Position numbers and translations under genes: made by a program. This document shows, one piece after another, positions 4,697 to 23,018 of a stretch of 23,018 nt of DNA. The notes under the pieces are model-generated. The model saw only the letters and a list, made by a program, of their open reading frames with translations, had not been told where the DNA came from and did not search any database. Where the stretch lies: positions 1 through 23,018 of IMG/VR virus record IMGVR_UViG_3300005915_000122; one strand, 5' to 3'. Source of the stretch: a virus. Within the stretch, counting starts at the first letter, position 1. The number at the start of each line of letters is the position of its first letter.

Positions 4697-6034
4697 TTAT
4701 TTCAAAACAGCCTTAATAGTACGGTTTAGCGATAACTCTTTTTCTATATCGTACCATTCCCTTTCTGTAAACTTTCTGTCAAGTTCGGTCTCCACGTCTT
4801 GACGGCTCATTAATCCTGCTTCCATCTTCGCAAGTAATACTTCAAGTTCTGTCTTGGATGCGAAGGCGTTGGCCTTGCGAGTCTCTGCTTGTGATTTTTG
4901 ATCTCTAAAGCTAATCTCACGCCAGACACGTTCCCACTTAATACCTGTCATTCCGACCATTGCGAGACCTTCACCGAAAAACCGGTTAGCAAATGGATCA
5001 ATATTAGACCTATAACCTTTTACGCCCTCAGCTAACAAATCGGCTTGGTTATCGCTTAAACTTTCCGTTCTGCCGTAATTTTGTGAAAACGCCCAGTCAG
5101 GTAATCTTGATCCACCAATTATCTGTTTCATCACTTCTGCAATCGGAGTAGACAAAGCTGTTACCATTTTTTCGCCACCTTCTCCGATAATGCTAACGTC
5201 CAGATTTCCACCATACGGCAAACCTGTAATGACATCGCCGGTCTTGCCGCCATGTTTTAATTTCATGACTTTACCAAGTTGAGTTTGTACATTTTCCGCT
5301 GCATTCCTCGCCATTAGAGCCATTGCTTTAGGATTCTTGCTTTCCGCACCTGTTACGGTTATGAGAAAGCTGGGGTCTCCTACACGCCAGGCCGCATTAT
5401 TAATACACTGATATAGCCGTTCAAGTATTTGAGTCATCCAGGGCATACCGTGGTAAATTGAAAAACCCTGCGGGAATCCTTCTCTCAAATCAGGAGCCAT
5501 ATAATAAATATACTCTGGTTTCTCGAATACCTTTACTTGCCCCATTAAGTCTACTTGCCCAAGTACGGGCTTATCGTCTACCGTTTTAAATCTTAGCGTA
5601 TTAGTGTTTATATTGGTCAGGTGGTGCCAGCCCTTAAGGTTTGCCAATGGTACGGCTTCGCCAGCCGCGCCACCCTTTGCAATAGCCGAATCAACAAGCT
5701 GATTCTGAAATACCGGCCAGGATTTAGAAACGTTATTAACAACCACGTTTGAATATAAATCTTTTAAATAGTCCTCTGCTGATTTGTTCCCAAACGTCTC
5801 AAAATCAAACGTACCAATAAGCGAATTATAAATGGACGGCACAAGATCAATACAAGGCAATATACCCCTCAGCCTGTCGATGAACTCGCCGGACAGCTGC
5901 ATAATCGGTTTGTTAATATCAAAACTAAACCTTGTTGAATAACTTGATCTTGCTTGTGTTGATGCCGCAGTCTGGCTTATGGCCAACGCCTGGTCTGGTT
6001 TCTTCTCAAATAAAATAAAATCACCTATTCTCAT
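4697..6034 (-). CDS. Phage portal protein
   Basis: This 445-aa protein is expected to form the dodecameric ring at the capsid vertex, through which DNA is packaged. It is called from position between large terminase and Mu-F protein, from size, and from its portal-like C-terminal half: a conserved stem/wing region (RLYQCINNAAWRVGDPSFLI, and GGSRLPDWAFSQN) and a charged helical tail ending with LMSRQDVETEL, the kind of tail seen on many portals. No catalytic residues are expected. The ATG overlaps the terminase stop by 4 nt (ATGA), so the two are translationally coupled. The exact portal subfamily is not clear to me. Confidence 0.82.
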   Translation of the reverse strand: MRIGDFILFEKKPDQALAISQTAASTQARSSYSTRFSFDINKPIMQLSGEFIDRLRGILPCIDLVPSIYNSLIGTFDFETFGNKSAEDYLKDLYSNVVVNNVSKSWPVFQNQLVDSAIAKGGAAGEAVPLANLKGWHHLTNINTNTLRFKTVDDKPVLGQVDLMGQVKVFEKPEYIYYMAPDLREGFPQGFSIYHGMPWMTQILERLYQCINNAAWRVGDPSFLITVTGAESKNPKAMALMARNAAENVQTQLGKVMKLKHGGKTGDVITGLPYGGNLDVSIIGEGGEKMVTALSTPIAEVMKQIIGGSRLPDWAFSQNYGRTESLSDNQADLLAEGVKGYRSNIDPFANRFFGEGLAMVGMTGIKWERVWREISFRDQKSQAETRKANAFASKTELEVLLAKMEAGLMSRQDVETELDRKFTEREWYDIEKELSLNRTIKAVLK

Positions 6035-7548
6035 CGCTCACCTCCGCCAACAAAAAATATTGCATCAGTATCACCCGGATAAAAACTTATCGCTAAAGAA
6101 TCAGATTTATCGGGACTGCGTCCTATTCTTTTTTTAATCTCATCTTTAGGTTCTAAAACTATAGACCCGTCACTTCTCAAATTCTTTACTCTCGTTTCAC
6201 ATAATTCCTGCATTAGTTCTGCATCGGGCGGCAGGGCAAGGGCCCCTTCAAGTTTTGGGTCTAAGGCATCCCTAACCGCCCAAATGCATAATGATCGCAT
6301 ATTTGCAAAAGTTCTCTCTCCCGTTAAATCCGTATAACCTTTTGCACTTTCGGAAAATTTAACACTAACAGAATCTACTTCCATTTCAAGTAATCTTGCA
6401 TGAACACCAGCACCCTCACCAAGTGAATCAACAAAATCCTTATCACCACTTCTCAATGTTTGCTTTATCTTACCCGCTATTGCCATGTGTATTTTAGCCG
6501 GGTCGTCAACAGGTAAATCCCACTCTTCTATTTTCTCAACAAACGAACCATATCTAAAAGTAGGAACAGTTTTATCTCTACCCATACCGGCAACGTCAAC
6601 GCCGAGGCTTAATGGTGCACATCCTTTTGCGTCCCTGTCAAACTTGCCTATACCCTCAAGCCAACGTTCATTTGCCAACTCAACCCAACGCATGGGAATA
6701 ACCTGGCTTTCATCTTCTTCGGGGAACTCGCCTAAAATCTTAACTCTTGCAAGATTGTTCGGTCTCCACCATTTACCATCAAATTCAAAATCGCATTTAG
6801 CCTCTGATACTTCGTCTTTTTCTATTTGCCTACACCACATTTCTACATGTTCTTTTACCCACGGATAATCTACCTGGCCGGGAATATCATTGTTCTTATT
6901 GACTACGTTTGCCGCATCTAAACAAGACAATTTCCGTGATACATAAAACTTACTCGCTACGGACTTATATGCAAAACCTGAATTGTTATTTGGATTGAAC
7001 AATATTAATTTCTTTGGATCGACGCCCGTTAATATCCCCTCGGTTGCTTCATCAACAGCATCCTCTATACCGCTGGCCTCTGTCATTATTAAAAACAAAT
7101 TAGGTGAATGAAACCCTGTCCATGACTCAATACTTTTATCACCGGCCTTAAATGCCATTAAATAATGCTTGGTATCTGGTTTGTTTTTGTTTCCCTTATA
7201 CGGGAATTTAATTATATTGGTGAGGACTTCACCTGTAAGCGGTATTTTGGAATTACGATGTATTGATGAAATTTCGGCCATGTTTATGCTTATGGCTTGT
7301 CTATGGGTGGGAGCTGTACAAATTACGATAGCGGGATAATGAGAATACAAATAACAATTGGCGGAAAGTGCGGCCATGTAATCCTTACCCCAGGCATGGC
7401 CGGATCTTAGACTGATTTTTCTATTGTGCTGAATAAGATGTAATATTTCCTGTTTCTCAGTTGTTAGCTCTACACCAAACCCATCACGGGCCAGCCGGTT
7501 CCAATCGCTTGTTAAATATTTTATAGCCTTTACTTCTTCCCAGGTCAA
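6031..7548 (-). CDS. Terminase large subunit (TerL)
   Basis: This packaging motor and headful/cos nuclease has 505 aa. The ATPase domain shows a Walker-A-like loop RSGHAWGKD (residues 48-56), a Walker B strand with the catalytic acid in LFLIMTEASG (151-160), and the coupling motif LILFNPNN (181-188). The RNase-H-like nuclease domain begins with LGVDVAGMGRDKT (Asp near 318) and is preceded by the usual GEFPEEDE linker. No ATG fits the start: the frame opens just after a TGA, and TTG 7548 gives MTWEEV. A stronger SD (GGGGAGG, about 7576-7570) would instead serve a TTG in a different frame 16 nt upstream, so the 5' end deserves attention. It is coupled to the portal (ATGA). Confidence 0.93.
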   Translation of the reverse strand: MTWEEVKAIKYLTSDWNRLARDGFGVELTTEKQEILHLIQHNRKISLRSGHAWGKDYMAALSANCYLYSHYPAIVICTAPTHRQAISINMAEISSIHRNSKIPLTGEVLTNIIKFPYKGNKNKPDTKHYLMAFKAGDKSIESWTGFHSPNLFLIMTEASGIEDAVDEATEGILTGVDPKKLILFNPNNNSGFAYKSVASKFYVSRKLSCLDAANVVNKNNDIPGQVDYPWVKEHVEMWCRQIEKDEVSEAKCDFEFDGKWWRPNNLARVKILGEFPEEDESQVIPMRWVELANERWLEGIGKFDRDAKGCAPLSLGVDVAGMGRDKTVPTFRYGSFVEKIEEWDLPVDDPAKIHMAIAGKIKQTLRSGDKDFVDSLGEGAGVHARLLEMEVDSVSVKFSESAKGYTDLTGERTFANMRSLCIWAVRDALDPKLEGALALPPDAELMQELCETRVKNLRSDGSIVLEPKDEIKKRIGRSPDKSDSLAISFYPGDTDAIFFVGGGER

Positions 7549-13263: not shown

Positions 13264-13911
13264 TTATAACTCCATTTTTATCTGTTGCATCTTCTGCCGT
13301 TCCTGTTCTAATCTTTTTAAGCTGTCAGTCCAATAGTCTATATCTGTTTCAAATGCGATATAATCAAATCCCATCCATTCACAGGCTATTGCTAAACTGG
13401 CTGATCCGGAATGAGTGTCAAGTATCTTGTCGCCTTGTTTGGCGTAGTTGTGGAGTAGCCATTTGTAGAGCTTTATGGGCTTTTGAGTGGCGTGTATTGG
13501 CTTGCCCCCATTATCCGACAACGCACCAGCCCGGCTTAAATTGAAAACTTTTAACTTTTTATTGAAACTCGTATACGCCAACTCTCCATCGCTGGTAGAA
13601 AACTTTCTCTGTCCCTTATCCCAAAACACCCAACCCATTGATGGCTTTAAATGTTCAACCATATAATTCCCACCCCATATTATTTGGTTTTCCGAAATCC
13701 TAAACAATTCCTTAAAGTATTCAGGCTTTGGTTTTTCAGAATCCCATTCAGACCGCTTGTGTTGAACCCATCCAAATTCTTTCATGCCAAAATTTTTACT
13801 TCGATTTATCCCATACGGCGGGTCGACTATCGCCAACTCAAAATAGTTATCAGAAAAATGCGCCATACCTTTCATATTGTCCATGTTGTAAATTTTATTC
13901 AATTCTAACAT
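13264..13911 (-). CDS. DNA methyltransferase of the N6-adenine/N4-cytosine (DPPY) class, 215 aa
   Basis: Catalytic motif IV is DPPYGI (residues 30-35). The target-binding and SAM parts follow in circularly permuted (beta-class) order: HATQKPIKLYKWLL, then GDKILDTHSGSASLAIACEW, where the usual FxGxG is THSGSAS, then GFDYIAFE. It would methylate adenine N6 or cytosine N4 in a specific site; phages use such orphan enzymes against host restriction. It starts MLELNKIYNMD with a weak SD. A TTGACT-17-TAGATT promoter-like site lies 29 nt upstream. Family secure; target base not determinable. Confidence 0.85.
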   Translation of the reverse strand: MLELNKIYNMDNMKGMAHFSDNYFELAIVDPPYGINRSKNFGMKEFGWVQHKRSEWDSEKPKPEYFKELFRISENQIIWGGNYMVEHLKPSMGWVFWDKGQRKFSTSDGELAYTSFNKKLKVFNLSRAGALSDNGGKPIHATQKPIKLYKWLLHNYAKQGDKILDTHSGSASLAIACEWMGFDYIAFETDIDYWTDSLKRLEQERQKMQQIKMEL

Positions 13912-14665: not shown

Positions 14666-14725
14666 GTCTAACCTGTTCATGAACCTGACCGTGGACTACA
14701 GCGGCAGGTTATGAAGTGGTTAGCC
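14666..14725 (-). repeat. attC-like site A (60 bp)
   Basis: On the plus strand: R box GTCTAAC (14666), spacer CTG, arm TTCAT[G]AACCTG[A]CCG, loop, return arm CGG-CAGGTT-ATGAA, spacer GTG, R box GTTAGCC. Brackets mark unpaired bases in an otherwise perfect 14-bp stem. CTAAC/GTTAG of the two R boxes also pair. GTCTAAC fits the integron RYYYAAC consensus exactly. The methyltransferase stop codon lies in the right-hand R box, and the next gene's SD follows on the other side. Confidence 0.7.
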
Positions 14726-15676
14726 TTGCGTACACAATGCCTCTTCTACACAGCGCAACCCCCAGAAAATTCGTTCAGCCACTTGCGGCACTATTGAGTT
14801 TCCGAGTGATTTAAGTCTGTCCACCCTTGAGGGTATCCCATCAGCCACTCGACCCACTGAGGGTTCAGGCTCCCACCCGTACATCCAATTGCGTTCGTTA
14901 ATCCCTTTTGTTTGCTGTTCGGGCCTCTCCCCTTCCATTCGCAAGCGGTCATTGTCGGCCACATCTTCACTGCATGCTCCAATCCTTTCTGCATTAACCG
15001 CCCCGTTTCCTTGTCGTACCATCTTTGATTGTGATGGGTTGGTGCATTTCCATTCTTGTCTACTGGTGTCCTGTATTTCCACCCCGGCTCGTTTACACTT
15101 GGGGTTGGCCACATTTGCCGACTCAACACTGATTCTAAGTTGTTGAATTTGTCCCCACACCTCTTTGGGGATAGGTTGCCCGTCAAACGACCCCTCATTG
15201 TTGGCAACAATCCAGACTCGGTTCCTTCTGTGTTTGGCGTCCGCACCGCAAGCTGGAATAATAAACGTTTCTGTCTCGTACCCCTCACCTTCCAACGAAG
15301 TAAGCACGTCGTCGAGTGCCAGATTGATGATTCCAGTAACATTTTCCCCAACAACCCAACGGGGCTTTGCTTCTTTAATAACGCGGAGCATTTCAGGCCA
15401 GAGGTAACGGTCATCCTCCCGGCCTCCCTGCTTCCCGGCAACACTAAACGGTTGGCATGGAAACCCCCCGGTAAGAATGTCAATTGTTCCCCATCCGCTC
15501 CCCTTGAATGTTTTAATGTCGTCATGTATTGTCACTCCTGGCCAATTTTTCATAAGTACCTTTTGACAGAACGGGTCAAGCTCTACCATGCATTTACAGT
15601 TTAGAGATTCCCCCCAAACCCTTTGCGCTGCTAATCGAAATCCGCCGATTCCTGAAAATAAGTCTAACATATTCAA
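14720..15676 (-). CDS. DNA (cytosine-5) methyltransferase, 318 aa
   Basis: Motif I DLFSGIGGF (5-13), motif IV with catalytic Cys GGFPCQPFS (70-78), ENV (111-113), HRRNRVW (about 149-155) and motifs IX-X RLKSLGNSIVPQVAERI near the C-terminus are all present, so the enzyme appears complete. It would methylate C5 of cytosine in a specific site. Between motifs VIII and IX a variable region repeats VAN/VAD segments, and this stretch also codes in a second frame. The gene is more GC-rich than its neighbours, suggesting separate acquisition. TTG 15676 has the better-spaced SD (GAGGGA); ATG 15670 is the alternative. An attC-like site flanks each end. Confidence 0.9.
   Translation of the reverse strand: MNMLDLFSGIGGFRLAAQRVWGESLNCKCMVELDPFCQKVLMKNWPGVTIHDDIKTFKGSGWGTIDILTGGFPCQPFSVAGKQGGREDDRYLWPEMLRVIKEAKPRWVVGENVTGIINLALDDVLTSLEGEGYETETFIIPACGADAKHRRNRVWIVANNEGSFDGQPIPKEVWGQIQQLRISVESANVANPKCKRAGVEIQDTSRQEWKCTNPSQSKMVRQGNGAVNAERIGACSEDVADNDRLRMEGERPEQQTKGINERNWMYGWEPEPSVGRVADGIPSRVDRLKSLGNSIVPQVAERIFWGLRCVEEALCTQG
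14791..15525 (-). CDS. Overlapping 244-aa protein in an alternative frame of the C5-methyltransferase gene
   Basis: This frame is open for 244 codons inside the methyltransferase gene, shifted by one base, and does not look like random translation. Residues 61-94 (KMLLESSIWHSTTCLLRWK, and RLLFQLAV), three P-T-rich repeats (LLPTMRG at 106, MWPTPSVNE at 138, MWPTMTACEWKG at 188) and the ending LNPQWVEWLMGYPQGWTDL match a protein type I recall from many phage and metagenome entries, usually found with C5-methyltransferases. Its function is unknown to me. The SD before ATG 15525 is weak. The repeats read as VAN/VAD segments in the enzyme frame, so both products may be under selection. Confidence 0.6.
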   Translation of the reverse strand: MTTLKHSRGADGEQLTFLPGGFHANRLVLPGSREAGRMTVTSGLKCSALLKKQSPVGLLGKMLLESSIWHSTTCLLRWKVRGTRQKRLLFQLAVRTPNTEGTESGLLPTMRGRLTGNLSPKRCGDKFNNLESVLSRQMWPTPSVNEPGWKYRTPVDKNGNAPTHHNQRWYDKETGRLMQKGLEHAVKMWPTMTACEWKGRGPNSKQKGLTNAIGCTGGSLNPQWVEWLMGYPQGWTDLNHSETQ

Positions 15677-15690
15677 GTCATCTTCCCTCG

Positions 15691-15756
15691 TGTACGCCGT
15701 TCATAAGCGTGGCTCTGTACGCCACATTCTCTAAGGCTAACAAAGTGCTGTACGCG
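15691..15756. promoter_or_regulatory. Repeated TGTACGC motifs and hairpin in methyltransferase leader
   Basis: TGTACGCC occurs at 15691-15698 and 15716-15723 and TGTACGCG at 15749-15756 (plus strand), all just upstream of the C5-methyltransferase start; the third lies inside attC-like site C. A hairpin GTGGC-GTACAGA-GCCAC (minus strand) spans the middle copy. They could be operators for autoregulation, as known for some C5-methyltransferases; inference. Confidence 0.35.
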
Positions 15757-15814
15757 GCAACCCGTCACAGCCAATTCCTTACCGCCTATTTGCCGGTAAG
15801 CACCAACGTTATAA
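15735..15814 (-). repeat. attC-like site C (80 bp)
   Basis: Plus strand: GGCTAAC, spacer AAA, arm GTGCT[G]TAC[G]CGGC, a 33-nt variable loop, arm GCCG-GTA-AGCAC, spacer CAAC, GTTATAA. The stem has 12 bp with two unpaired bases. The stop codon of the 61-aa gene lies inside the GTTATAA box, and the methyltransferase leader follows on the other side. Confidence 0.65.
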
Positions 15815-15994
15815 TTGTTCATTGTGTTTATAGGCCAGTTCTCTTAATTCTTCCGATTTCATCATAAATTCACCATCGGGATATGCTGGTGATTGATTGT
15901 TACTCAACCTAACCTTGTTTTCAATTTTCATTCCTTCAATGTCTGCTTGTATGGCCAAAATCAAAGCTAATCTTTTTACATCGTATTCATTCAT
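15809..15994 (-). CDS. Hypothetical protein, 61 aa
   Basis: Starts MNEYDVKRLALILAIQADIE. Helical N-terminal half, polar middle (RLSNNQSPAYPDGEFM) and acidic helical end (KSEELRELAYKHNEQL). The SD TTGGAGGG lies directly after attC-like site D, and the stop lies in site C, so the gene fills exactly one cassette-like unit. Unknown function. Confidence 0.65.
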   Translation of the reverse strand: MNEYDVKRLALILAIQADIEGMKIENKVRLSNNQSPAYPDGEFMMKSEELRELAYKHNEQL

Positions 15995-16010
15995 TTTATA
16001 TTCCCTCCAA

Positions 16011-16068
16011 TTATAACAAAATTATGCAGCGGACGATAAACGCCCGCCGCTGATAATGGGCGTTATAT
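16011..16068 (-). repeat. attC-like site D (58 bp)
   Basis: Plus strand: TTATAAC, spacer AAA, arm ATTAT[G]CAGCGG[A]CG, loop ATAAACGCC, arm CG-CCGCTG-ATAAT, spacer GGGC, GTTATAT. Stem 13 bp with two unpaired bases; R boxes pair as TATAAC/GTTATA. TAACAAA at one end and GGGCGTTATA at the other closely resemble the ends I recall for Vibrio cholerae repeats (VCR). Confidence 0.7.
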
Positions 16069-16086
16069 TTATTCACAGGGTATAGG

Positions 16087-16647
16087 TCAACCCCATTGAA
16101 TTGCCATTGCGTCAGCGATACCAAAATACGTTTTACTCCTCAACTTCGCCCTATCTTTAGAAGGCGGCAACATGTGCAATCGCTGCTCTCTTCCTTTAGC
16201 AATTCTAGTTGGTTCTAATTTTGGCAAGTTCTTTAGCCATAGACAAGTGGCCTTTGTCTCCCCGTGCCCGAATTGCCAAGGCTGTATAATCTGATCATAT
16301 TTTTTACCAATCTCTCTCACCGCATAACCATGTGGTATAGGATTCTCTATAGCAATTCTAGGTATGTCCGCATTTAGTAAAGTTTTGAAAAACCGGGCCC
16401 CCTCTCTCATTTCGTCCCAAAGGTTCCTTTTGTCAAGCCAGCAAACACCTGAGTTACATAATCTTGTACACGGTGGATGAGCAATCATAAGATCCCACCC
16501 TTCACCCAATAGGGGTAAAACATTACCCATATAATGGGGCCCGGATCTCTCTGTTGGTAAAATGTCACAACTCACTGCATCGTGGCCTCTCTTAATAAAT
16601 GCGTCACGCACTACACCGGAATATTCACAAGCAATTAACACCTTCAT
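16087..16647 (-). CDS. Phage C5-cytosine-methylase-like protein, 186 aa
   Basis: Begins MKVLIACEYSGVVRDAF, a Rossmann SAM-binding start like motif I of C5-methyltransferases. It continues to SCDILPTERSGPHYMG, then WDLMIAHPPCTRLCNSG, where PPC resembles the motif IV Pro-Cys. No clear motif IX-X follows (it ends SKTYFGIADAMAIQWG), so it is shorter than a classic enzyme. I recall this family as common in phages, annotated as DNA methylase or hypothetical. ATG 16647 is chosen for the SD AAAGGATTAGA; the longer in-frame start would run through attC-like site J. Confidence 0.7.
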   Translation of the reverse strand: MKVLIACEYSGVVRDAFIKRGHDAVSCDILPTERSGPHYMGNVLPLLGEGWDLMIAHPPCTRLCNSGVCWLDKRNLWDEMREGARFFKTLLNADIPRIAIENPIPHGYAVREIGKKYDQIIQPWQFGHGETKATCLWLKNLPKLEPTRIAKGREQRLHMLPPSKDRAKLRSKTYFGIADAMAIQWG

Positions 16648-16684
16648 TCTAATCCTTTCCATTCTTTGGTTATAGGGGTGAAAA

Positions 16685-16748
16685 ACATAACAAGCGATAT
16701 GAAATGGATGGTGAAAACCATCCACCAATTATATCTCCAACGTTATGC
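16685..16748 (-). repeat. attC-like site J (64 bp)
   Basis: Plus strand: ACATAAC, spacer AAGC, arm GATAT[G]AAATGG[A]TGG, loop, arm CCA-CCAATT-ATATC, spacer TCCAAC, GTTATGC. One A-A mismatch in the 6-bp part. R boxes pair CATAAC/GTTATG. An alternative perfect 8-bp hairpin (TGGATGGT-GAAA-ACCATCCA) forms its tip. It starts three bases from the stop of the zinc-ribbon gene at 16752. Confidence 0.6.
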
Positions 16749-16751
16749 ATG

Positions 16752-16874
16752 CTAAAAAGTTTCATCACTACTCAATTCAGTATTGCCGCATTTACTGCAC
16801 TTATCACCATTCTTACACTTATATTTTTTTAATATCACATGAATTTCGTTTGTACACTTTATTACATTTCTCAT
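16752..16874 (-). CDS. Very small zinc-ribbon protein, 40 aa
   Basis: MRNVIKCTNE to SSDETF, with C7, C20, C26 and C29 (CKNGDKCSKCGN) as a likely single zinc site. The ATG overlaps the upstream stop (ATGA), and GAGGGGATTTAAA is a good SD. It is the last gene before attC-like site J. One of about a dozen small zinc-binding proteins in the window. Confidence 0.6.
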   Translation of the reverse strand: MRNVIKCTNEIHVILKKYKCKNGDKCSKCGNTELSSDETF

Positions 16875-17188
16875 TTTAAATCCCCTCCCCTGCAATTATC
16901 GCACCTGTCACATAGTCCCCAGATGTCCCACCATTGAACAGCAAACTGAGATACTTTCTTTTTCCTGGCTACCCATTTACCACAGACACCGCAATGGAAC
17001 CCATCATGTTCAATTATTGTAATCTCCTCTACATCCCCTTCAATATCTTTAATATCTTTTTCATTCCAGATTTTACCATCCGGGAATTGAACTCCGTATA
17101 TATGATTCCCAAAATAGTTATCTATCCAACTAGCTTTTTGTAATTTGCCAGTGGATGGATTTCTGGTCATTTTATCAAAGTTGCTCAT
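16871..17188 (-). CDS. Zinc-ribbon protein, 105 aa
   Basis: The N-terminal 65 residues look like a small beta domain (YGVQFPDGKIW). It is followed by CGVCGKW near 67 and CDRCDNCRGG near the C-terminus, four to five cysteines for one zinc. It overlaps the end of the DNA-binding-like gene by 14 nt in another frame. The product ends GGDLK. No family assigned. Confidence 0.6.
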   Translation of the reverse strand: MSNFDKMTRNPSTGKLQKASWIDNYFGNHIYGVQFPDGKIWNEKDIKDIEGDVEEITIIEHDGFHCGVCGKWVARKKKVSQFAVQWWDIWGLCDRCDNCRGGDLK

Positions 17189-17366
17189 TGTCTCCTTGTT
17201 GAAGATCTATATTAAACCATTGGCATAATGCCTTTTCAATTGCACTGGCCTGATTATTTTCCATCTTCAACCGTTCAATCAATTTTGGATGAAGTCGAAA
17301 AGATACCATCCGCTTTTTGTGAAGGGCCGGTTTGCGTCCAGCCCCTAGTCGTTTGCCGCCCCTCAT
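17175..17366 (-). CDS. Small arginine/glycine-rich DNA-binding-like protein, paralogue 1, 63 aa
   Basis: The GGKRLGAGRKPALHKK start is the AT-hook-like GAGRK segment seen on many small phage proteins. It is followed by MVSFRLHPKLIERLK (a beta strand, then a helix), then NNQASAIEKALCQWFNIDL, the pattern of a ribbon-helix-helix protein. Two relatives lie at 18689-19057 and 21616-21765. It probably binds DNA as a dimer and may regulate local genes; inference from fold. ATG 17366 overlaps the upstream stop (ATGA). Confidence 0.65.
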   Translation of the reverse strand: MRGGKRLGAGRKPALHKKRMVSFRLHPKLIERLKMENNQASAIEKALCQWFNIDLQQGDNEQL

Positions 17367-17590
17367 ATTTTAACCATAGTTGCGTGGCTAACAAACTTAC
17401 GATTTTGTTTAAATGTTAATTTTCCGTCTTTATAAACGCCAAACCACACAACACTTGCCATCTCTCCGTTTTCCATGATTACAATAATCTTCTCAATCCC
17501 TGACTGGCCAACGGTCCAGTGTGTCCCATCTTCAAAATGAAGAGCTTCTACTTTTTGCCCGTCATAAAAATAAGTTTCATCCTGTCCCAT
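17363..17590 (-). CDS. Hypothetical protein, 75 aa
   Basis: Starts MGQDETYFYDGQKVEALHFE, chosen for the SD AAAGGAGACAAA; an in-frame ATG at 17647 has no SD. It looks beta-rich (THWTVGQSGIEKIIVIMENG, then VVWFGVYKDGKLTFKQ). It ends in ATGA overlap with the DNA-binding-like gene. Unknown function. Confidence 0.6.
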   Translation of the reverse strand: MGQDETYFYDGQKVEALHFEDGTHWTVGQSGIEKIIVIMENGEMASVVWFGVYKDGKLTFKQNRKFVSHATMVKI

Positions 17591-17671
17591 TTTGTCTCCT
17601 TTTTTACAAGTGTGCTTTAGTAGCTTCCAGATATTTTGCGGCGGCATAAATTTAAAACCGTCTGGTTGTCT

Positions 17672-18052
17672 TTATTCAATATTGCTTCCGAGCGAGGCCA
17701 AATAATCCTTATCCTTATCTGTAAGAGGATTACAAAAACCAAGAGAACTGCCTCTAAAAGATTTAATGTGTTTACCATTCTCGCGGATGTTAAGTGTTTT
17801 CAGGTTACCCTCACGCCCTTCGGTTGCCGTTCGTTTTTGGCCAAGCAAAATAGTTGTGCCGTGCCGTTTAATGTCTGCGGTTCTGATTGTAACTTTCATT
17901 TGATCCTCATAATCAATTTTTTGTACTTCTGCTTGATATTTTTTTGCTTCGCTTCCAATCATTTCAGCGCTATCAACGCCTTTTCCTGAGAAATTAAGTT
18001 GAATCAAGATGTTATTATCATCAATCATTTGCGCGCTCATTCTGACTTTCAT
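17672..18052 (-). CDS. Hypothetical protein, 126 aa
   Basis: Starts MKVRMSAQMIDDNNILIQL. Alternating hydrophobic strands and a charged middle (AEVQKIDYEDQMKVTIRTAD) suggest an alpha/beta fold. The C-terminal half is basic and low in hydrophobics (QKRTATEGREGNLKTLNIRE). The ATG overlaps the upstream stop (ATGA). I do not recognise a family. Confidence 0.6.
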   Translation of the reverse strand: MKVRMSAQMIDDNNILIQLNFSGKGVDSAEMIGSEAKKYQAEVQKIDYEDQMKVTIRTADIKRHGTTILLGQKRTATEGREGNLKTLNIRENGKHIKSFRGSSLGFCNPLTDKDKDYLASLGSNIE

Positions 18053-18279
18053 TTTAAACTCCCCGTTTTTATTTGTTTATTTATCAAGGTTGCTGAAATA
18101 TCACCATGAATCAATACATCTCCAAAAAAAACAGTTGTTTCGTCTTCGTCACCCCTGTTTATAACGGTTATCTCTTCTGTGTCATAATCAATCCGGCAGA
18201 GAATTTCCCAGTAGGTCTGTTTCTTTTTGTCGAATATACGAAATAACCGATTATTAAATATAATATTATTTAGAATCAT
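18049..18279 (-). CDS. Hypothetical protein, 76 aa
   Basis: Beta-rich: IIFNNRLFRIFDKKKQTYWE, then DTEEITVINRGDEDETTVFF, then GDVLIHGDI. Coupled on both sides by ATGA overlaps (zinc-finger gene upstream, 126-aa gene downstream). Small, acidic middle, basic tail. No family known. Confidence 0.6.
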   Translation of the reverse strand: MILNNIIFNNRLFRIFDKKKQTYWEILCRIDYDTEEITVINRGDEDETTVFFGDVLIHGDISATLINKQIKTGSLK

Positions 18280-18425
18280 TGTGTTACTTGCTCTTTCATC
18301 CTTTTATTCATCAAGATGTAATATTCTCCACAAAATGAACATCGTTTAGGAATGTGGCATTTCTTTTTACTATCAGCCTTGAGCCACAAGGTCATACCAC
18401 ATTTTTTACACTTTATAACCTTCAT
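18276..18425 (-). CDS. Small zinc-finger protein, 49 aa
   Basis: MKVIKCKKCGMTL with CKKC (6-9) and CSFCGE (29-34) makes a classic one-zinc ribbon. The C-terminus (LMNKRMKEQVTQ) is basic. The SD GAGGATTGA precedes ATG 18425. The DNA coding its last part resembles the 3' tail of the RHH-like genes read in a different frame (CTTGATGAATAAAAG occurs here and at the relic 18440-18469). Confidence 0.6.
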   Translation of the reverse strand: MKVIKCKKCGMTLWLKADSKKKCHIPKRCSFCGEYYILMNKRMKEQVTQ

Positions 18426-18439
18426 TCAATCCTCATCTT

Positions 18440-18469
18440 TTATTCATCAAGGTCTATCTCGAAATATTC
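18440..18469 (-). pseudogene. Relic 3' end of an RHH-like gene
   Basis: The frame EYFEIDLDE followed by TAA is almost the same as the ends of the paralogues (EYFGIDLGE and WFGIDLDEQ). It is not attached to a start and lies just after the stop of the 74-aa gene, so it is probably the remnant of a fourth copy cut by recombination. Confidence 0.45.
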
Positions 18470-18692
18470 AAAATTTATTAATCCTTTCTTCTATCTCTTC
18501 AATTGTCAAGTACTCATTGTTTATTAATATTAAAGGCTCTATTTCTTTAATGCAACTTTCAACAGGTTTTACAGGTGAACATGGCCCATAACTATAAAAC
18601 TTTCCCTGTTGGTCAATTAAAAACCATCCACATTCTGGCTCAATTGCGGATTTTTCATTTCCATCTATCTTAAATTTAACTCTAAAAATCAT
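18468..18692 (-). CDS. Hypothetical protein, 74 aa
   Basis: Starts MIFRVKFKIDGNEKSAIEPE. ATG 18692 overlaps the stop of the upstream gene (ATGA) and follows GGGGAAATAGTACT. Beta-rich front (CGWFLIDQQGKFYSYGPC) and acidic helical end (EYLTIEEIEERINKF). No family known. Confidence 0.6.
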   Translation of the reverse strand: MIFRVKFKIDGNEKSAIEPECGWFLIDQQGKFYSYGPCSPVKPVESCIKEIEPLILINNEYLTIEEIEERINKF

Positions 18693-19057
18693 AGTACTAT
18701 TTCCCCGGAATTTATTTGTTTTTTCATTTCTAATGCAGCCGCATAGACACAAGAACTACCATAATTTTTCCAACAGTCCTTACCTATCTTATAATCTACA
18801 AAATATGTTGGATAAGTATTGGCCCTTAAAATAATTTCATTAATTCTAACTATCTTCATTGCCTTGCCCTCTTTTTCTGTCTCTTGCTCATCAAGGTCTA
18901 TACCGAACCATCGGCACAATGCCTTTTCAATTGCACTTGCTTGGTTTTCTTCTCTCTTCAACCGTTCAATCAGTTTAGGATGAAGGCGAAAAGATACGGG
19001 CTTCTTTTTATCGGGCTTGGGCTTGCGTCCGGCCCCTTCTCGTTTGCCGCCTCTCAT
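18689..19057 (-). CDS. RHH-like DNA-binding protein paralogue 2 fused to a second domain, 122 aa
   Basis: Residues 1-58 (MRGGKREGAGRKPKPDKKKP, then VSFRLHPKLIERLKREENQ) are nearly the same as the protein at 17175-17366. After a linker (EQETEKEGKA) a second unit begins at an internal Met: MKIVRINEIILRANTYPTYF, ending MKKQINSGEIVL. An SD-like GAGGGCAAGGCA stands before that Met, so a separate shorter product is possible. The likely role is DNA binding as a dimer. ATG 19057 overlaps the upstream stop (ATGA) and has SD AAAGGAAG. Confidence 0.65.
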   Translation of the reverse strand: MRGGKREGAGRKPKPDKKKPVSFRLHPKLIERLKREENQASAIEKALCRWFGIDLDEQETEKEGKAMKIVRINEIILRANTYPTYFVDYKIGKDCWKNYGSSCVYAAALEMKKQINSGEIVL

Positions 19058-19311
19058 GCTACTTCCTTTAATTTCGATATACACCCTAAAAGATATTCGT
19101 TTTCGCTTTTTAAATATTCAACCTTATTGGTTGCAAAATTATTGAGTTCATTAATCATATCAGCAACGGCATAAGATATAGCAGCGTTAATTGATGTCCC
19201 CCCAAAACCTTTAATCTGATATAATTGCGCTCTTATCTCTGCATATCTTTTCAATTCTTGTTGTATCGCTGTCACTTTCTTTTCCTCGTTTTTTTTAGTT
19301 TGGTCTCTCAT
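19054..19311 (-). CDS. Hypothetical helical protein, 85 aa
   Basis: Almost entirely helical and charged: KKVTAIQQELKRYAEIRAQL, then INAAISYAVADMINELNNF, then a coiled-coil end. ATG 19311 lies only 10 nt from the -10 element of the promoter at 19321-19349, so the message would be nearly leaderless. An in-frame GTG at 19275 has a good SD (GAGG, eight bases) and may be the true start. First gene of the operon running down to about 16.7 kb. Confidence 0.6.
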   Translation of the reverse strand: MRDQTKKNEEKKVTAIQQELKRYAEIRAQLYQIKGFGGTSINAAISYAVADMINELNNFATNKVEYLKSENEYLLGCISKLKEVA

Positions 19312-19320
19312 GACACTATA

Positions 19321-19349
19321 AATATACTAATCATTTAGATTAAAGTCAA
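19321..19349 (-). promoter_or_regulatory. Sigma70-like promoter
   Basis: TTGACT (19349-19344), 17 nt, TATATT (19326-19321) on the minus strand; start of transcription expected near 19314. Same spacing and -10 as the sites at 10838 and 22026. It opens the operon of RHH-like and zinc-finger genes. A lone GCCTAAC (19399-19393), possibly a recombination-site remnant, lies 44 nt upstream. Confidence 0.65.
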
Positions 19350-19411
19350 GTCTTTTTTCAACTATTTTCAAAGAGGGCAACAGAAACAAGGGGTTAGGCG
19401 TGAAAAAATAT

Positions 19412-19900
19412 TCATTTTATCCTCACCTTCTCCAAACCAAACGATTCCCCGGCAGAATTATACGCCGAATACCTTAAATTTTCCAGCGTTACGGATGTGT
19501 CCTGACCTGCCCAGATCAAGTGATTTCCTAAATAAATCCGGTATCCGTATACTGGCCGCCGGGGATCGAATTTATTCTCATTCCAAATAAGTATAATTCC
19601 CCCGGTATCAACTTCCAACTTTGCAAGACGGTTCATTATTGCCGCTTGCCGGGTTTCAATGTCAATAATTTCTTCATCCAGCCCGTCGATTCCGAGCCAG
19701 ACTGTATTTATTTCTCGTCTCAATTCCGCCTTGAAAACCACACTGTCAAGAGCGGCCTCCGTTGCGACTTGCTTCTTTTCCAATTCTGCAATACGTTTCC
19801 AAACTGCCGTATCGTCACGGCATCCGGAAAAAAGAATGATTGCAATTACCGCCAGGATAAAACTGCAAATGGCCGCCTTAAATAAATTTTGCCTTTTCAT
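19412..19900 (-). CDS. Lipoprotein with coiled coil and FN3-like C-terminus, 162 aa
   Basis: The signal peptide is typical: basic start (MKRQNLFKA), hydrophobic core (AICSFILAVIAIILF) and a lipobox FSGC with Cys near 27. A charged coiled coil follows (RIAELEKKQVATEAALD, and IDIETRQAAIMNRLAKLEV). The last 60 residues (RPVYGYRIYLGNHLIWAGQD, TSVTLENL, SAYNSAGES) look like a fibronectin type III strand set. It should be an envelope-anchored protein, perhaps for lysis or superinfection exclusion. Coupled to the small membrane protein upstream by ATGA. Confidence 0.7.
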   Translation of the reverse strand: MKRQNLFKAAICSFILAVIAIILFSGCRDDTAVWKRIAELEKKQVATEAALDSVVFKAELRREINTVWLGIDGLDEEIIDIETRQAAIMNRLAKLEVDTGGIILIWNENKFDPRRPVYGYRIYLGNHLIWAGQDTSVTLENLRYSAYNSAGESFGLEKVRIK

Positions 19901-20046
19901 TTCGTCCCCCGTATTTTAATATACTTTGGTTTACCATAAGATTCTAACCCATCTTTAAAATCAAACAGGCCATATCCTAACAGAGTTACTAAAAACTCAA
20001 TGATAAACATTATTGTTTCACCGATTTTTCTTATAAGGTTTTTCAT
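19897..20046 (-). CDS. Small membrane protein, 49 aa
   Basis: A single hydrophobic helix (IMFIIEFLVTLLGYGLF) after a basic start (MKNLIRKIGE), then a basic tail (YGKPKYIKIRGTK). SD AGAAGAGGTAAACC. It overlaps the lipoprotein start by 4 nt, so the two envelope proteins are produced together. Together with the lipoprotein it could form a lysis or exclusion pair, but no motif proves this. Confidence 0.6.
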   Translation of the reverse strand: MKNLIRKIGETIMFIIEFLVTLLGYGLFDFKDGLESYGKPKYIKIRGTK

Positions 20047-20059
20047 GGTTTACCTCTTC

Positions 20060-20401
20060 TTACTGACTCCGATCAACCCACTCTTTAAGTATCTCCTTAA
20101 CTGCATCAACACTAATATTCAATGCAGTTAGTAATTTACTCGCTCTACTGTTCGCCGTTCTGTGATATTTCATGGTATCATCAATAAGTGGACGAATAAT
20201 ATCAACCTTTGCCGCCGCTCCGTCTTGGCTAACCACTGGCTGCACGGCGGATTTTGCCCCTTCATCCCCAAATATTACTACGGTAAAAACAAGCTTGTTA
20301 ATCCATTTTAATTCATCTTGTCTAAATTCCTCAAGACTTTCTGGGGTTGAAACACCCATAATTGCCAAAGCTTGTTTTAAATGTCTAATTGGTACGCTCA
20401 T
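20060..20401 (-). CDS. Hypothetical protein, 113 aa
   Basis: Starts MSVPIRHLKQALAIMGVSTP. Helical throughout, with a short hydrophobic stretch (WINKLVFTVVIFG) and a Gln/Asp/Ala linker. The end is charged (VDAVKEILKEWVDRSQ). It sits just after half-site E, and the SD GGAAAGG lies beside that hairpin. It precedes the two envelope genes and may belong with them. No family recognised. Confidence 0.6.
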   Translation of the reverse strand: MSVPIRHLKQALAIMGVSTPESLEEFRQDELKWINKLVFTVVIFGDEGAKSAVQPVVSQDGAAAKVDIIRPLIDDTMKYHRTANSRASKLLTALNISVDAVKEILKEWVDRSQ

Positions 20402-20419
20402 AGTATTCTATCCTTTCCC

Positions 20420-20450
20420 CACCGCTAAATCGGTGAGCCCAATGTTATAT
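20420..20450. repeat. attC-like half-site E
   Basis: Plus strand: short hairpin CACCG-CTAAAT-CGGTG, then AGCCCAAT and R box GTTATAT. The outer return arm is absent; the SD and start of the next gene take its place. The R box ends one base from the stop of the gene at 20452. Confidence 0.4.
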
Positions 20451-20451
20451 G

Positions 20452-20646
20452 TTAAGAAAATATAATTTTTAATCCGGCTTTTTGTGCTGATATGATTTTA
20501 TCCTTCTCATCCAATACAAGCCTAACCAATTCAGCTGGCGGTGTTCCTAATGGCCCATGTTCTTCTAATATAGAACCGGACAACTCTAACTCATTAACAA
20601 CATCTTCAAGCATGTTTTCCAGTTCTTCTTTTGTCCAGCAACTCAT
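20452..20646 (-). CDS. Hypothetical acidic protein, 64 aa
   Basis: Starts MSCWTKEELENMLEDVVNEL. ATG 20646 is chosen because GGAGAGGAG precedes it; upstream in-frame ATGs lie in attC-like site B. It is acidic and helical, with a proline-containing turn (EEHGPLGTPPAEL) and a second helix (LVRLVLDEKDKIISAQKAGL). It fills one cassette-like unit between site B and half-site E. No family known. Confidence 0.6.
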   Translation of the reverse strand: MSCWTKEELENMLEDVVNELELSGSILEEHGPLGTPPAELVRLVLDEKDKIISAQKAGLKIIFS

Positions 20647-20667
20647 AATAATTACTCCTCTCCGATT

Positions 20668-20725
20668 TTCTAACATGTTCATCAACCTGACCGGTGAAAC
20701 GTGGCAGGTTATGAAGTGGTTCTAC
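20668..20725 (-). repeat. attC-like site B (58 bp)
   Basis: Plus strand: TTCTAAC, spacer ATG, arm TTCAT[C]AACCTG[A]CC, loop, arm GG-CAGGTT-ATGAA, spacer GTG, GTTCTAC. Unpaired C and A on this strand correspond to G and T on the other, the same pair and 6-nt spacing as in classic attC sites. It shares 19 nt (GGCAGGTTATGAAGTGGTT) with site A although the neighbouring genes are unrelated. Confidence 0.7.
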
Positions 20726-20737
20726 ACATTAAATAAT

Positions 20738-21205
20738 TCATTCCCCAAGGGCCGCTTTTATTTTAACTAGTGCGTCTATTACAACTTGTACAGAAGTGGA
20801 GTTTGTAAATACTATTTCAAGTACTGTGCCGTTGTTGGTAGCAGGGTTGCCGGCAGAACCTTTTAGCTCTGACCCTATTTTTCTACACTCGTGATATTGC
20901 GTCAATACGAGGACATTATCAATACTGTCCTTATAATGGGCTTCACTGATAAGTGTTGATCCATCGCCAATCTTTAAACAAGCCCTTCCACCCATGAATT
21001 TTTTAATGCCATCCATCACCACACCGCCCCCCACTGTAGAACCACTAGATGAACCTGACGAAATCCCCGCCTCACCCTCAAGCTGTTCAATTGCTTTCTC
21101 TCCTGCTTGTATCCTATAAGCCGCCCACTCTGGTTCCATTTTTACGAGTTGAAGTATATTACATTCAATGTATTCACTGGTATAATATTTTTTATCTAAA
21201 TCCAT
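20738..21205 (-). CDS. Hypothetical protein, 155 aa
   Basis: Starts MDLDKKYYTSEYIECNILQL. A helical N-terminal third ends in a Ser/Gly linker (GISSGSSSGSTVGGG), followed by a mixed alpha/beta part (KIGDGSTLISEAHYKDSIDN) and an end with VFTNSTSVQVVIDALVKIK. The linker suggests two independent domains. ATG 21205 is chosen over an in-frame TTG; the SD is in GGGGGAAGG just after half-site F. Not recognised. Confidence 0.6.
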   Translation of the reverse strand: MDLDKKYYTSEYIECNILQLVKMEPEWAAYRIQAGEKAIEQLEGEAGISSGSSSGSTVGGGVVMDGIKKFMGGRACLKIGDGSTLISEAHYKDSIDNVLVLTQYHECRKIGSELKGSAGNPATNNGTVLEIVFTNSTSVQVVIDALVKIKAALGE

Positions 21206-21224
21206 CTTTTCCAATTCCTTCCCC

Positions 21225-21257
21225 CGCCATTTCGCAGGTTATCTTTGAACGTTCTAC
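21225..21257. repeat. attC-like half-site F
   Basis: Plus strand: CG-CCATTT-CG tip, then CAGGTTATCTT, TGAAC and R box GTTCTAC (21251-21257), the same R box as site B. The 20 nt GCAGGTTATCTTTGAACGTT recur at half-site H. The matching left arm is missing and the next gene's SD is there instead. Confidence 0.45.
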
Positions 21258-21261
21258 ACAC

Positions 21262-21570
21262 TTAAAAATCCCCCACCAATCTTTTCGGTATGTATTCCTC
21301 ACAAATCATTGCGCATTTTTCACTTATTATATCAGACGCACCACAACTTTGATTGTATTTGTCACCCCAATGTGGACAACGGCAATTCCTGCACGGCACC
21401 TTACTTTCGCGTTCATTCTTAAACCACCCACCATTTTTAAGGCCACCCTTCCCGTCCCGACTATCCCCTGTAGAACACGGTAATGAACACGGACTTTGCT
21501 CCGCCGCCAATATCCTCTCTCTCTCTTCGTCGTCTAACATTCTTTCGGTAGCCTCGTCAAATAAACTCAT
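21262..21570 (-). CDS. Cysteine-rich protein, 102 aa
   Basis: Starts MSLFDEATERMLDDEERERI, an acidic helix. Then CSLPC, and a cysteine cluster CRNCRCPHWG followed by C, C and C in the last 35 residues, probably binding one or two zincs. Middle Gly/Lys-rich (DSRDGKGGLKNGGW). ATG 21570 has SD GGGAAGGGAA; the in-frame TTG 21591 would run into half-site G. No family assigned. Confidence 0.6.
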   Translation of the reverse strand: MSLFDEATERMLDDEERERILAAEQSPCSLPCSTGDSRDGKGGLKNGGWFKNERESKVPCRNCRCPHWGDKYNQSCGASDIISEKCAMICEEYIPKRLVGDF

Positions 21571-21584
21571 TTTAAATTCCCTTC

Positions 21585-21615
21585 CCGGCAAAGCCGGTTA
21601 TTTGGGTCGTTATAT
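21585..21615. repeat. attC-like half-site G
   Basis: Plus strand: hairpin CCGGC-AAA-GCCGG, then TTATTTGGGTC and R box GTTATAT, directly abutting the stop codon of the gene at 21616. The run CGTTATATTTATTC is identical to the end of site D. The opposite arm is replaced by the next gene's SD. Confidence 0.45.
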
Positions 21616-21765
21616 TTATTCGCCAAGGTCTATACCGAAATATTCACATAATAAACGCTGAATAAGTGCATTATATTTACCCTCTTTTCTTAACCGCTTA
21701 ATTATGAAAGGGTGAAGGCGAATTCCTAATGGCTGTTTTGGATGCTTCTTTTTAGGTGCTGGCAT
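21616..21765 (-). CDS. RHH-like DNA-binding protein, paralogue 3, 49 aa
   Basis: MPAPKKKHPKQPLGIRLHPF, then IIKRLRKEGKYNALIQRLLC and EYFGIDLGE. This matches paralogues 1 and 2 in the RLHP-xx-I-x-RLK, helix and FxIDL parts but lacks the GAGRK arm. Basic start, ribbon-helix-helix-like pattern. It is the first gene behind the structured RNA and its promoter, so it may control this operon. SD AAGGAAAATTAA. Confidence 0.6.
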   Translation of the reverse strand: MPAPKKKHPKQPLGIRLHPFIIKRLRKEGKYNALIQRLLCEYFGIDLGE

Positions 21766-21777
21766 TTAATTTTCCTT

Positions 21778-22019
21778 AATAAAAATTGAGGGGTGTCCTC
21801 AGTACCATTTTGTGTTGGCTCGTTCGCTGGGGAATTTCCGAGTTGTTCGTCGGCTGCTATCCAGTCTTCACAGAGCTTGTCCTTCCGGTTAATTTGCTAC
21901 CCATACGGGGCCAAGATTGCCTATGGCACATGGCTGCTACTCGCTACTATAACCTTTCAACAAGTTGCGCGTCCAAATTTCCCAATGATCTCAATTACGT
22001 TTTCCCCTCAATTTTTCGT
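21778..22019 (-). ncRNA. Candidate structured RNA or regulatory leader, about 240 nt
   Basis: Starting a few bases behind the promoter, AAAAATTGAGGGG (22016-22004) pairs perfectly with CCCCTCAATTTTT (21793-21781), a 13-bp terminal helix followed by ATT. Inside, further helices nest: GGGAAATTT (21983-21975) with AAATTCCC (21837-21830), one bulge; GGTTA (21954-21950) with TAACC (21891-21887); and CCATA with TATGG further in. There is no convincing ORF with SD on the minus strand, and the stretch is more GC-rich than its surroundings. The U-rich 3' side of the outer helix resembles a terminator. I match it to no known class (not tmRNA, RNase P or SRP). Confidence 0.6.
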
Positions 22020-22025
22020 TATTTT

Positions 22026-22054
22026 AATATACATATATCATTTGTTAATGTCAA
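22026..22054 (-). promoter_or_regulatory. Strong sigma70-like promoter of the structured RNA
   Basis: TTGACA (22054-22049), 17 nt, TATATT (22031-22026) on the minus strand. Expected start near 22019, at the foot of the 13-bp helix of the RNA element. Confidence 0.75.
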
Positions 22055-22091
22055 GACATTTATTGATTAACTTAGGGATTAGGGGCGAAAA

Positions 22092-22167
22092 AGATAACCA
22101 AATATTGTACACGGACGGCCCTTCCGCCCACGTCCCAGCCTTCCGCCGGTGAATATAACTGTTATTC
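22092..22167 (-). repeat. attC-like site I (76 bp)
   Basis: Plus strand: AGATAAC, spacer CAA, arm ATATT[G]TAC[A]CGG[A]CGG, a 24-nt loop, arm CCG-CCG-GTG-AATAT, spacer AACT, GTTATTC. Stem 14 bp (one G-T) with three unpaired bases. R boxes pair ATAAC/GTTAT. It starts 5 nt from the stop of the zinc-ribbon gene at 22172; the RNA promoter follows on the other side. Confidence 0.65.
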
Positions 22168-22171
22168 GGAA

Positions 22172-22483
22172 TCAAGATTTTCCCACCCAAGTTATTTTTA
22201 CACCACACTTTGGGCAATAGTCGTCACTCTCAAGTACGACTTGTCGATTACATGCCTTGCAACCATACACCGGTTCAGGTCTAAACATATTCGGGTGCGC
22301 TAAAGCAAATGCCGTCTTTATATCAATAACCACCCCATCTTGATTACCGCCCAACTCACCTTGCCCCGCCTCCCTCAACTCTTTGATAACATCCCTCGAT
22401 GAACACAATAAATCATCTAAAAGTAAATTATTCCCAAGATTTGTTTTGTCTAAATACTCTTGAAGTGCATCAACTATATCCAT
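22172..22483 (-). CDS. Zinc-ribbon protein, 103 aa
   Basis: Starts MDIVDALQEYLDKTNLGNN; ATG 22483 is chosen for SD GAAAGGATT (an in-frame TTG lies 18 nt earlier). Helical N-terminal part (LLLDDLLCSSRDVIKELREA), acidic linker, then a C-terminal ribbon GCKACNRQVVLESDDYCPKC, G-V-K, with two CxxC pairs. I recall such ribbon tails on many phage proteins with no fixed function. Flanked by half-site H upstream and site I downstream. Confidence 0.65.
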   Translation of the reverse strand: MDIVDALQEYLDKTNLGNNLLLDDLLCSSRDVIKELREAGQGELGGNQDGVVIDIKTAFALAHPNMFRPEPVYGCKACNRQVVLESDDYCPKCGVKITWVGKS

Positions 22484-22505
22484 ATCATTAAATCCTTTCA
22501 ATTAT

Positions 22506-22545
22506 GCCCGACCACCGCAAGGCAGGTTATCTTTGAACGTTATCA
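22506..22545. repeat. attC-like half-site H
   Basis: Plus strand: GCC, loop, GGCAGGTTATCTTTGAAC and R box GTTATCA. It shares the 20-nt run with half-site F. No matching left arm can be found. It lies 44 nt from the helicase stop, farther than the other sites. Confidence 0.4.
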
Positions 22546-22588: not shown

Positions 22589-23018
22589 TTAAAAATCTTT
22601 ATTAAACAACATCATTTCCTTCCTAAAATGTAATAGTATTTCGCCGATTTCACCATCTCTATATTTCGCCGTTTCAATTATTACCTCACTGACATTTTCG
22701 ATGTGAAGTCGACGAATAAATATAACCCTGTCGGCATCCTGCTCAATTGCTCCTGAACCTCGTAAATGTTCAAGCCCCGGTTTAACCTTTCCATCCCGGC
22801 TTAATTGTGATAAAATCAATAAGGGTACACCGGTTCTTTTTGCAAATCTCATCAAAGACCTGGAAATATTTTCAATCTCTATATTCTTACTTTCGCTTTT
22901 ACCTCCACGTATCAGCTGAAGATAATCAATGATTAATAATTTTATATTGTGTTCTTTTATCCATCTATGACCAGTAGCCAATACTTCATAAATCTTATCA
23001 GATGCAAAATCAAGATAT
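22589..23018 (-). CDS. DnaB-type replicative helicase, C-terminal part; partial, runs off right edge
   Basis: The frame is open to the window edge (143 codons), so the start lies outside. The RecA-like motor domain is clear: Walker B strand LLIIDYLQLI, then SLMRFAKRTGVPLLILSQLS, R-D, then LRGSGAIEQDADRVIFIRR, the usual DnaB motifs H2-H4. It ends HFRKEMMLFNKDF, like the last strand of DnaB. It unwinds DNA at the phage replication fork. Being next to the accessory region, it marks the border with the replication genes. Confidence 0.9.
   Translation of the reverse strand, partial: YLDFASDKIYEVLATGHRWIKEHNIKLLIIDYLQLIRGGKSESKNIEIENISRSLMRFAKRTGVPLLILSQLSRDGKVKPGLEHLRGSGAIEQDADRVIFIRRLHIENVSEVIIETAKYRDGEIGEILLHFRKEMMLFNKDF

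Follow-up and report, generated by a model that had tools for sequence, protein, structure and literature searches.

Clusters of attC sites lacking an integron integrase (CALINs) are already published for the phages TJE1, PH101, P12002L and MW202573 (Qi et al. 2023, PMC9892861), and DNA methylases were previously reported in phage cassettes (PMC9892861). In that work five of six attC sites of virulent phages recombined with attI1 via IntI1, and the attC bottom strands are the recombined strands (PMC9892861, PMC2727003); strand choice by IntI rests on the unpaired bases of attC (PMC2727003). The subject of this report is an array of six attC-like elements in the virus contig IMGVR_UViG_3300005915_000122 of the IMG/VR database, the whole 23,018 bp of which are referred to below as the window. 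Like the published phage CALINs (PMC9892861), it combines an attC cluster without integrase, a tailed-phage genome and methylase cassettes. By structure and model score all six elements are integron recombination sites of the attC type, with recombination predicted. Very probably they form a CALIN of phage accessory cassettes, chiefly methylases, which run antisense to attC and are exchanged by an IntI acting in trans or encoded outside the fragment. Clusters of attC sites in phages are known (PMC9892861); the antisense layout appears to be new. Neither this layout nor a phage-specific integrase clade is mentioned in the available part of PMC9892861, and no report of either was found in the open-access literature, subscription papers and preprints lying outside the search. 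The window alone would be a new member of the known phage CALINs, and the novelty is added by comparison with other viral arrays.

The described systems differ from the window in defined respects. The TJE1 CALIN is sense, unlike the window, while those of PH101 and MW202573 are antisense like it. Sedentary chromosomal integrons (Vibrio, Xanthomonas, Shewanella) share their attC structure with the window, but their genes are sense with attC, whereas the window genes are antisense and the fragment has no intI. Class 1 mobile cassettes share the attC plan (R boxes, 6-nt spacing, second unpaired A); the resistance genes, IntI1, attI1 and 3' conserved segment of class 1 mobile integrons are absent from the window, no search aimed at attI having been made. 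Compared with a complete integron, the fragment lacks the intI gene. The six sites are as follows:

14666..14725, + strand: attC site A (descriptor score 18; 34.7 bits with the known-attC model)
15735..15814, + strand: attC site B, inner stem degenerate (13.3 bits as a partial match with filters off, 21.5 bits at full length with default filters)
16011..16068, + strand: attC site C (descriptor score 19; 38.2 bits)
16685..16748, + strand: attC site D, one mismatch in the 6-bp stem (descriptor score 17; 19.6 bits)
20668..20725, + strand: attC site E, stem near-identical to that of A, R' degenerate (GGTTCTA; 16.5 bits)
22092..22167, + strand: attC site F, with imperfect pairing in the inner stem; its R boxes and the outer 5 bp are preserved (24.1 bits)

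With unpaired bases in square brackets, site A is decomposed as GTCTAAC-CTG-TTCAT[G]AACCTG[A]CCG...CGG-CAGGTT-ATGAA-GTG-GTTAGCC, and a TJE1 site follows the same plan (GTATAAC-AAC-GAGTT[C]GACCTG[A]CAACTT...AAGTTG-CAGGTC-AACTC-AAT-GTTATGC). Site C contains ATTAT[G]CAGCGG[A]CG..CG CCGCTG ATAAT and site D GATAT[G]AAATGG[A]TGG. The AAC/GTT cores are present in all six sites, and the flanking bases match RYYYAAC/GTTRRRY in part, site E having GGTTCTA. The unpaired bases of the L'' arm are 6 nt apart in sites A, C and E, and also in D despite its mismatch; the second unpaired base is A in sites A, C, D and E. Published phage attC sites share both traits. A T precedes the first unpaired base in six of six sites, positions 2 and 6 of the inner stem are A and G, and these T, A and G columns are invariant in the known attC set. 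Ahead of the R'' boxes of sites D and F lies the stretch TAGGGGYGAAAAA.

The sequence-only reading had described an array of six intergenic palindromes sharing one attC plan, the first two of them nearly identical. All six are present where it had placed them. The common plan holds for the R boxes and outer stem, both kept in B (15735) and F (22092), but inner pairing is broken in these two sites and the 3' box at 20668 is degenerate. A near-identical pair does exist; it consists of the sites at 14666 and 20668 (A and E) instead of the first two in order, with the right arm GGCAGGTTATGAAGTGGTT the same in both and the left arm differing at the unpaired base only, and the two are not identical. 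What had been called an array is a four-site cluster at 14.7-16.7 kb (2.1 kb) followed by two outliers 3.9 and 1.4 kb further on, and the 3.9-kb gap breaks any even spacing. Half-site-like remnants (L'-R' halves with a GTT end) were also seen in other gaps, at 20420-20447, 21232-21258, 21585-21618 and 22515-22545; two of them share GCAGGTTATCTTTGAACGTT, and the remnants are unscored by the attC model.

A strict descriptor (AAC/GTT, spacer, 5 bp, unpaired base, 6 bp, unpaired base, stem) selected 14666-14725, 16011-16068 and 16685-16748 on the + strand and nothing comparable on the - strand. Dinucleotide shuffles reached a descriptor score of at least 16 at 0.005 per strand, and a slightly looser descriptor gave two distinct matches in 617 kb and five in 926 kb of other phage DNA (7 per 1.5 Mb). 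Because the strict descriptor overlooks many true attC sites (class 1, Vibrio), its silence elsewhere was left out as evidence. Eleven known attC sites, taken from class 1 cassettes, phage TJE1, Shewanella and bacterial integron arrays but not from the window, were aligned, and once pair counts had verified the structure of the alignment a covariance model was built on it. With filters off, the top six loci of the window under this model are the six sites, all on the + strand. Their attC identity survives the model check, with 16.5-38.2 bits for five sites and 13.3-21.5 bits for the sixth against a background of one match in 1.2 Mb of phage loci gathered by terminase and methylase searches. 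The packaging and head region (1-13 kb), said earlier to be free of such elements, holds nothing above 12.8 bits. The model also detects the attC sites of the published CALIN phages TJE1, PH101 and MW202573; it missed the attC of P12002L. Across 52 sites, drawn from the window and from other viral arrays, compensatory change preserves the fold (248 two-sided changes vs 99 in shuffles), with a covariation score of 0.441 vs 0.125 in shuffles for an alignment fitted to the model. The exact A/E-type pattern had no match in the viral and bacterial collections; both bacterial integron arrays and other viral contigs do contain A/E-type sites (AACCTG inner stem).

The intervals between and beside the sites are occupied as follows:

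14720..15676, - strand: cassette A-B, C-5 cytosine DNA methylase (PF00145, phrog_363)
15809..15994, - strand: cassette B-C, 61-aa open reading frame (ORF) filling the interval, with its stop at the R' of B and its start 17 nt before the R'' of C
16087..16728, - strand: cassette C-D, DNA methylase-like protein (phrog_757), whose start is likely to be near 16650
16749..20667, - strand: interval D-E, 3.9 kb, about 12 small genes, including two ribbon-helix-helix-like paralogues
20738..21214, - strand: 158-aa ORF adjoining site E
22172..22501, - strand: zinc-ribbon-like ORF adjoining site F (weak Pfam match, below cut-off)

Intervals A-B, B-C and C-D hold one gene each, which spans the interval. 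The cassette genes stop at R' or within about 20 nt of it and likely start shortly before R''; the R' of site A (GTTAG) shares bases with the stop codon of the A-B methylase gene beside it, and a Shine-Dalgarno-like stretch lies immediately outside the R'' of sites A, C and E. The G+C content at third codon positions of the A-B methylase gene is 0.48 vs about 0.33 in neighbouring phage genes. Interval D-E is not a single cassette, since it holds about 12 genes and no attC was detected within it (16748-20668). Its ribbon-helix-helix-like paralogues are at 17175-17366 and 18880-19057, with a third similar stretch near 21630-21766. Beside site F, a strong promoter-like TTGACA-17-TATATT occurs at 22026-22054 on the - strand, and a similar match at 19321-19349. 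Having two or more attC sites in the space of a few kb and no intI on the record, the array is classed as a CALIN, being an attC cluster without integrase on a tailed-phage fragment.

The window genes point to the - strand and attC, by the position of the unpaired bases, to the + strand. Orientation was scored from the best ORF per strand of each inter-attC interval using a codon log-odds model trained on the contig; a count from ORF coverage alone was dropped in favour of this score, high-GC contigs (e.g. L074) having given contradictory calls. In the window, all four scorable intervals are antisense. Bacterial integron loci gave 26 sense, 1 antisense and 6 undecided, and a second bacterial control 17 sense and 2 antisense (43:3 when pooled, a few loci such as L171 and L273 entering both controls). 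Viral contigs gave 33 antisense, 12 sense and 56 undecided, and those with intI 23 antisense and 0 sense, in a set that relies on simple gene calling, includes some near-duplicate contigs and may include some with bacterial flanks. Fisher's test of the intI-bearing viral contigs against the bacterial controls, on pooled counts, gave p ~2e-15, a value that overstates independence because the contigs are related. By deposited annotation, the arrays of PH101 and MW202573 are antisense too (L057 31920-33988; L054 2069-3738). The direction is backed by homology as well, since the antisense viral cassettes include phrog_67 and phrog_954 methylases and an RNA ligase. Gene orientation had gone unremarked in the sequence-only reading.

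Integrases were found in other viral contigs. Three contigs with antisense arrays encode a protein above the NCBIfam integron-integrase cut-off (TIGR02249-type), and all three genes have portal and terminase genes beside them on the same strand, one of them capsid genes as well. The viral IntI proteins retain the catalytic residues and the integron-specific ALxRKYP...W segment. A scan with the three proteins gave 50 viral loci, of which about 43 have a clear relative; about 15 of the viral intI contigs also carry terminase or portal relatives. In these contigs attC is nearly always found upstream of intI and on the other strand, the arrangement of bacterial sedentary chromosomal integrons, and the cassette genes run in the same direction as intI. 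A quick tree of 86 proteins, made without bootstrap, unites 30 of 37 viral IntI in one viral-only clade (Shimodaira-Hasegawa-like approximate likelihood ratio test 96) and places the remaining seven among bacterial IntI. Contigs L214-L216 and L218-L262 carry TIGR02249-type integrases with attC arrays upstream, often near terminase or portal genes; the window shares with them the attC array upstream of packaging genes and the gene-antisense layout, and differs in having no intI on the fragment. In L229 (118-989), three attC sites are spaced exactly 389 bp apart upstream of intI, which suggests tandem copies of one cassette. Four attC sites 140-250 bp apart, near too small for genes, lie at the end of a 50-kb viral contig (L066 88-907).

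A further proposal, which could equally well prove right or wrong, is that phages possess an integron of their own, with a viral integrase clade in the operon near terminase and portal, a phage gene pool (methylases, RNA ligase, orphan families) and reversed cassettes. The window array would belong to this pool and be moved by such an integrase from the missing part of the genome, a co-infecting phage or the host.

Relatives of the window methylases occur in cassettes elsewhere. A relative of the C-D methylase (L232 1153-1725) is the first cassette before intI, with attC at 1049-1106; A-B methylase relatives lie between two attC sites upstream of intI in L253 and beside attC in L183 and L188; and relatives of the methylase at 13264 form a cassette in the TJE1 array and stand next to attC and intI in L219 and L247. 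A constant link between the C-D methylase and attC was considered and rejected, most carrier phages having no attC nearby. For this reason the methylases are regarded as phage genes able to enter cassettes, and C-D-type genes also travel without attC.

The exchange proposed would proceed as follows. The attC bottom strand, here the coding strand of the genes, would, once single-stranded, form a hairpin; an integron integrase, either acting in trans or encoded in the phage genome beyond the 23-kb fragment, would bind the R and L boxes, with the unpaired bases setting the strand; and exchange at G|TT of R' would insert or remove whole methylase-type cassettes between phage genomes. IntI would thus bind and recombine the window sites, and cassettes would presumably still move. 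The cassettes would be read by the phage operon instead of a Pc promoter, and only genes aligned with the operon would be kept, so that, as proposed, the reversed layout became fixed. In a laboratory construct with an inverted V. cholerae superintegron, cassette excision rises once the attC bottom strand lies on the lagging template (PMC11023631). An antisense phage array with genes along the fork would have the same effect, although the construct is an engineered whole-array inversion, unlike the phage array.

The surrounding contig has nearly all of its likely genes on the - strand. They extend from the minor head, portal and terminase genes (3-7.5 kb) through a stretch of small genes with an exonuclease (8-12 kb) and the methylases with the array (13-22 kb) to a DnaB-like helicase (right end), and by its portal and terminase genes the contig is assigned to a tailed phage. 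The array is located in a tailed-phage genome, with the helicase on one side and the terminase and portal genes on the other:

4697-6034, - strand: portal protein
6031-7548, - strand: terminase large subunit
13264..13911, - strand: N6/N4 DNA methylase, following the array in the order of transcription
22589..23017, - strand: DnaB-like replicative helicase, partial, flanking the array

The window gave no match to Rfam families at gathering thresholds, and a tRNA search of it found none.

The sequence-only reading had held that part of the phage was built from, or still exchanges, integron-like cassettes, and had proposed a search for an integrase or other tyrosine recombinase. Construction from such cassettes is well supported; continued exchange is not borne out in the same way. 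Several observations weigh against the reading as a CALIN with exchange by IntI. No tyrosine recombinase was found on the 23-kb record, TIGR02249 and PF00589 both being without match. Scans with the terminase and cassette genes found no sister phage with different cassette content; apart from one 4-kb fragment that was identical, they brought up only distant relatives, those of the terminase at no more than 45%. Almost all of 80 phages with a C-D methylase relative have no attC near it. Any gain from the lagging-template effect hinges on the direction of replication. Three of the six sites are degenerate, and part of the array may accordingly be fossil.

A rival reading, possible but rather unlikely, takes the whole array for a fossil: the sites would descend from attC but be inert, the array having been caught once from a bacterial integron by ordinary recombination and then inherited. 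The degeneracy of B, E, F and several half-site-like remnants, the missing integrase and the many genes without sites in D-E all fit it. Bacterial cassettes are nearly all sense, however, and the same would be expected of a bacterial copy, which would not be antisense throughout; sites A and C remain intact, their stems well paired, and the near-identical A and E separate unrelated genes.

It is very unlikely that the elements work as RNA hairpins which end transcripts, or serve the processing or stability of mRNA, between the phage genes. In favour of this, the palindromes lie in transcribed intergenic DNA, weak terminators are said to occur in attC sites (PMC9892861), and one terminator-like match (16050-16026) overlaps one of the sites. 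Yet such matches are at background (8 found vs 8.4 expected) and the other sites have none, for which reason the terminator reading was rejected; moreover, the R boxes, the 6-nt spacing of unpaired bases and the second unpaired A are attC traits that an RNA hairpin does not need. Assembly of a bacterial integron beside a phage fragment is hardly credible: the window is a single metagenomic contig, and a second contig (L001) matches only ~6.8-10.8 kb of it, but the array has a phage-type DnaB helicase on its far side and head genes on its near side, all of them sharing one strand, and the same layout recurs in independent viral contigs and two published phages. Dispersed palindromic repeats (of the repetitive extragenic palindromic or miniature inverted-repeat transposable element kind) resembling attC by chance are barely conceivable, for although A and E are near copies in two places, the other four sites differ in sequence yet keep the attC plan, and an independent attC model scores the sites and almost nothing else in 1.2 Mb.

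If the CALIN reading with exchange by IntI is true, phages use integron recombination to swap anti-restriction methylases, beyond carrying stray integron pieces, and phages with such arrays may swap small genes such as those of DNA methylases by the integron route. The phage layout would depart in a defined way from that of bacterial integrons. Since its recombinogenic attC strand is the coding strand of the genes, the reversed layout offers a concrete test of why bacteria couple attC and gene polarity. Phages would then be both source and carrier of integron cassettes.

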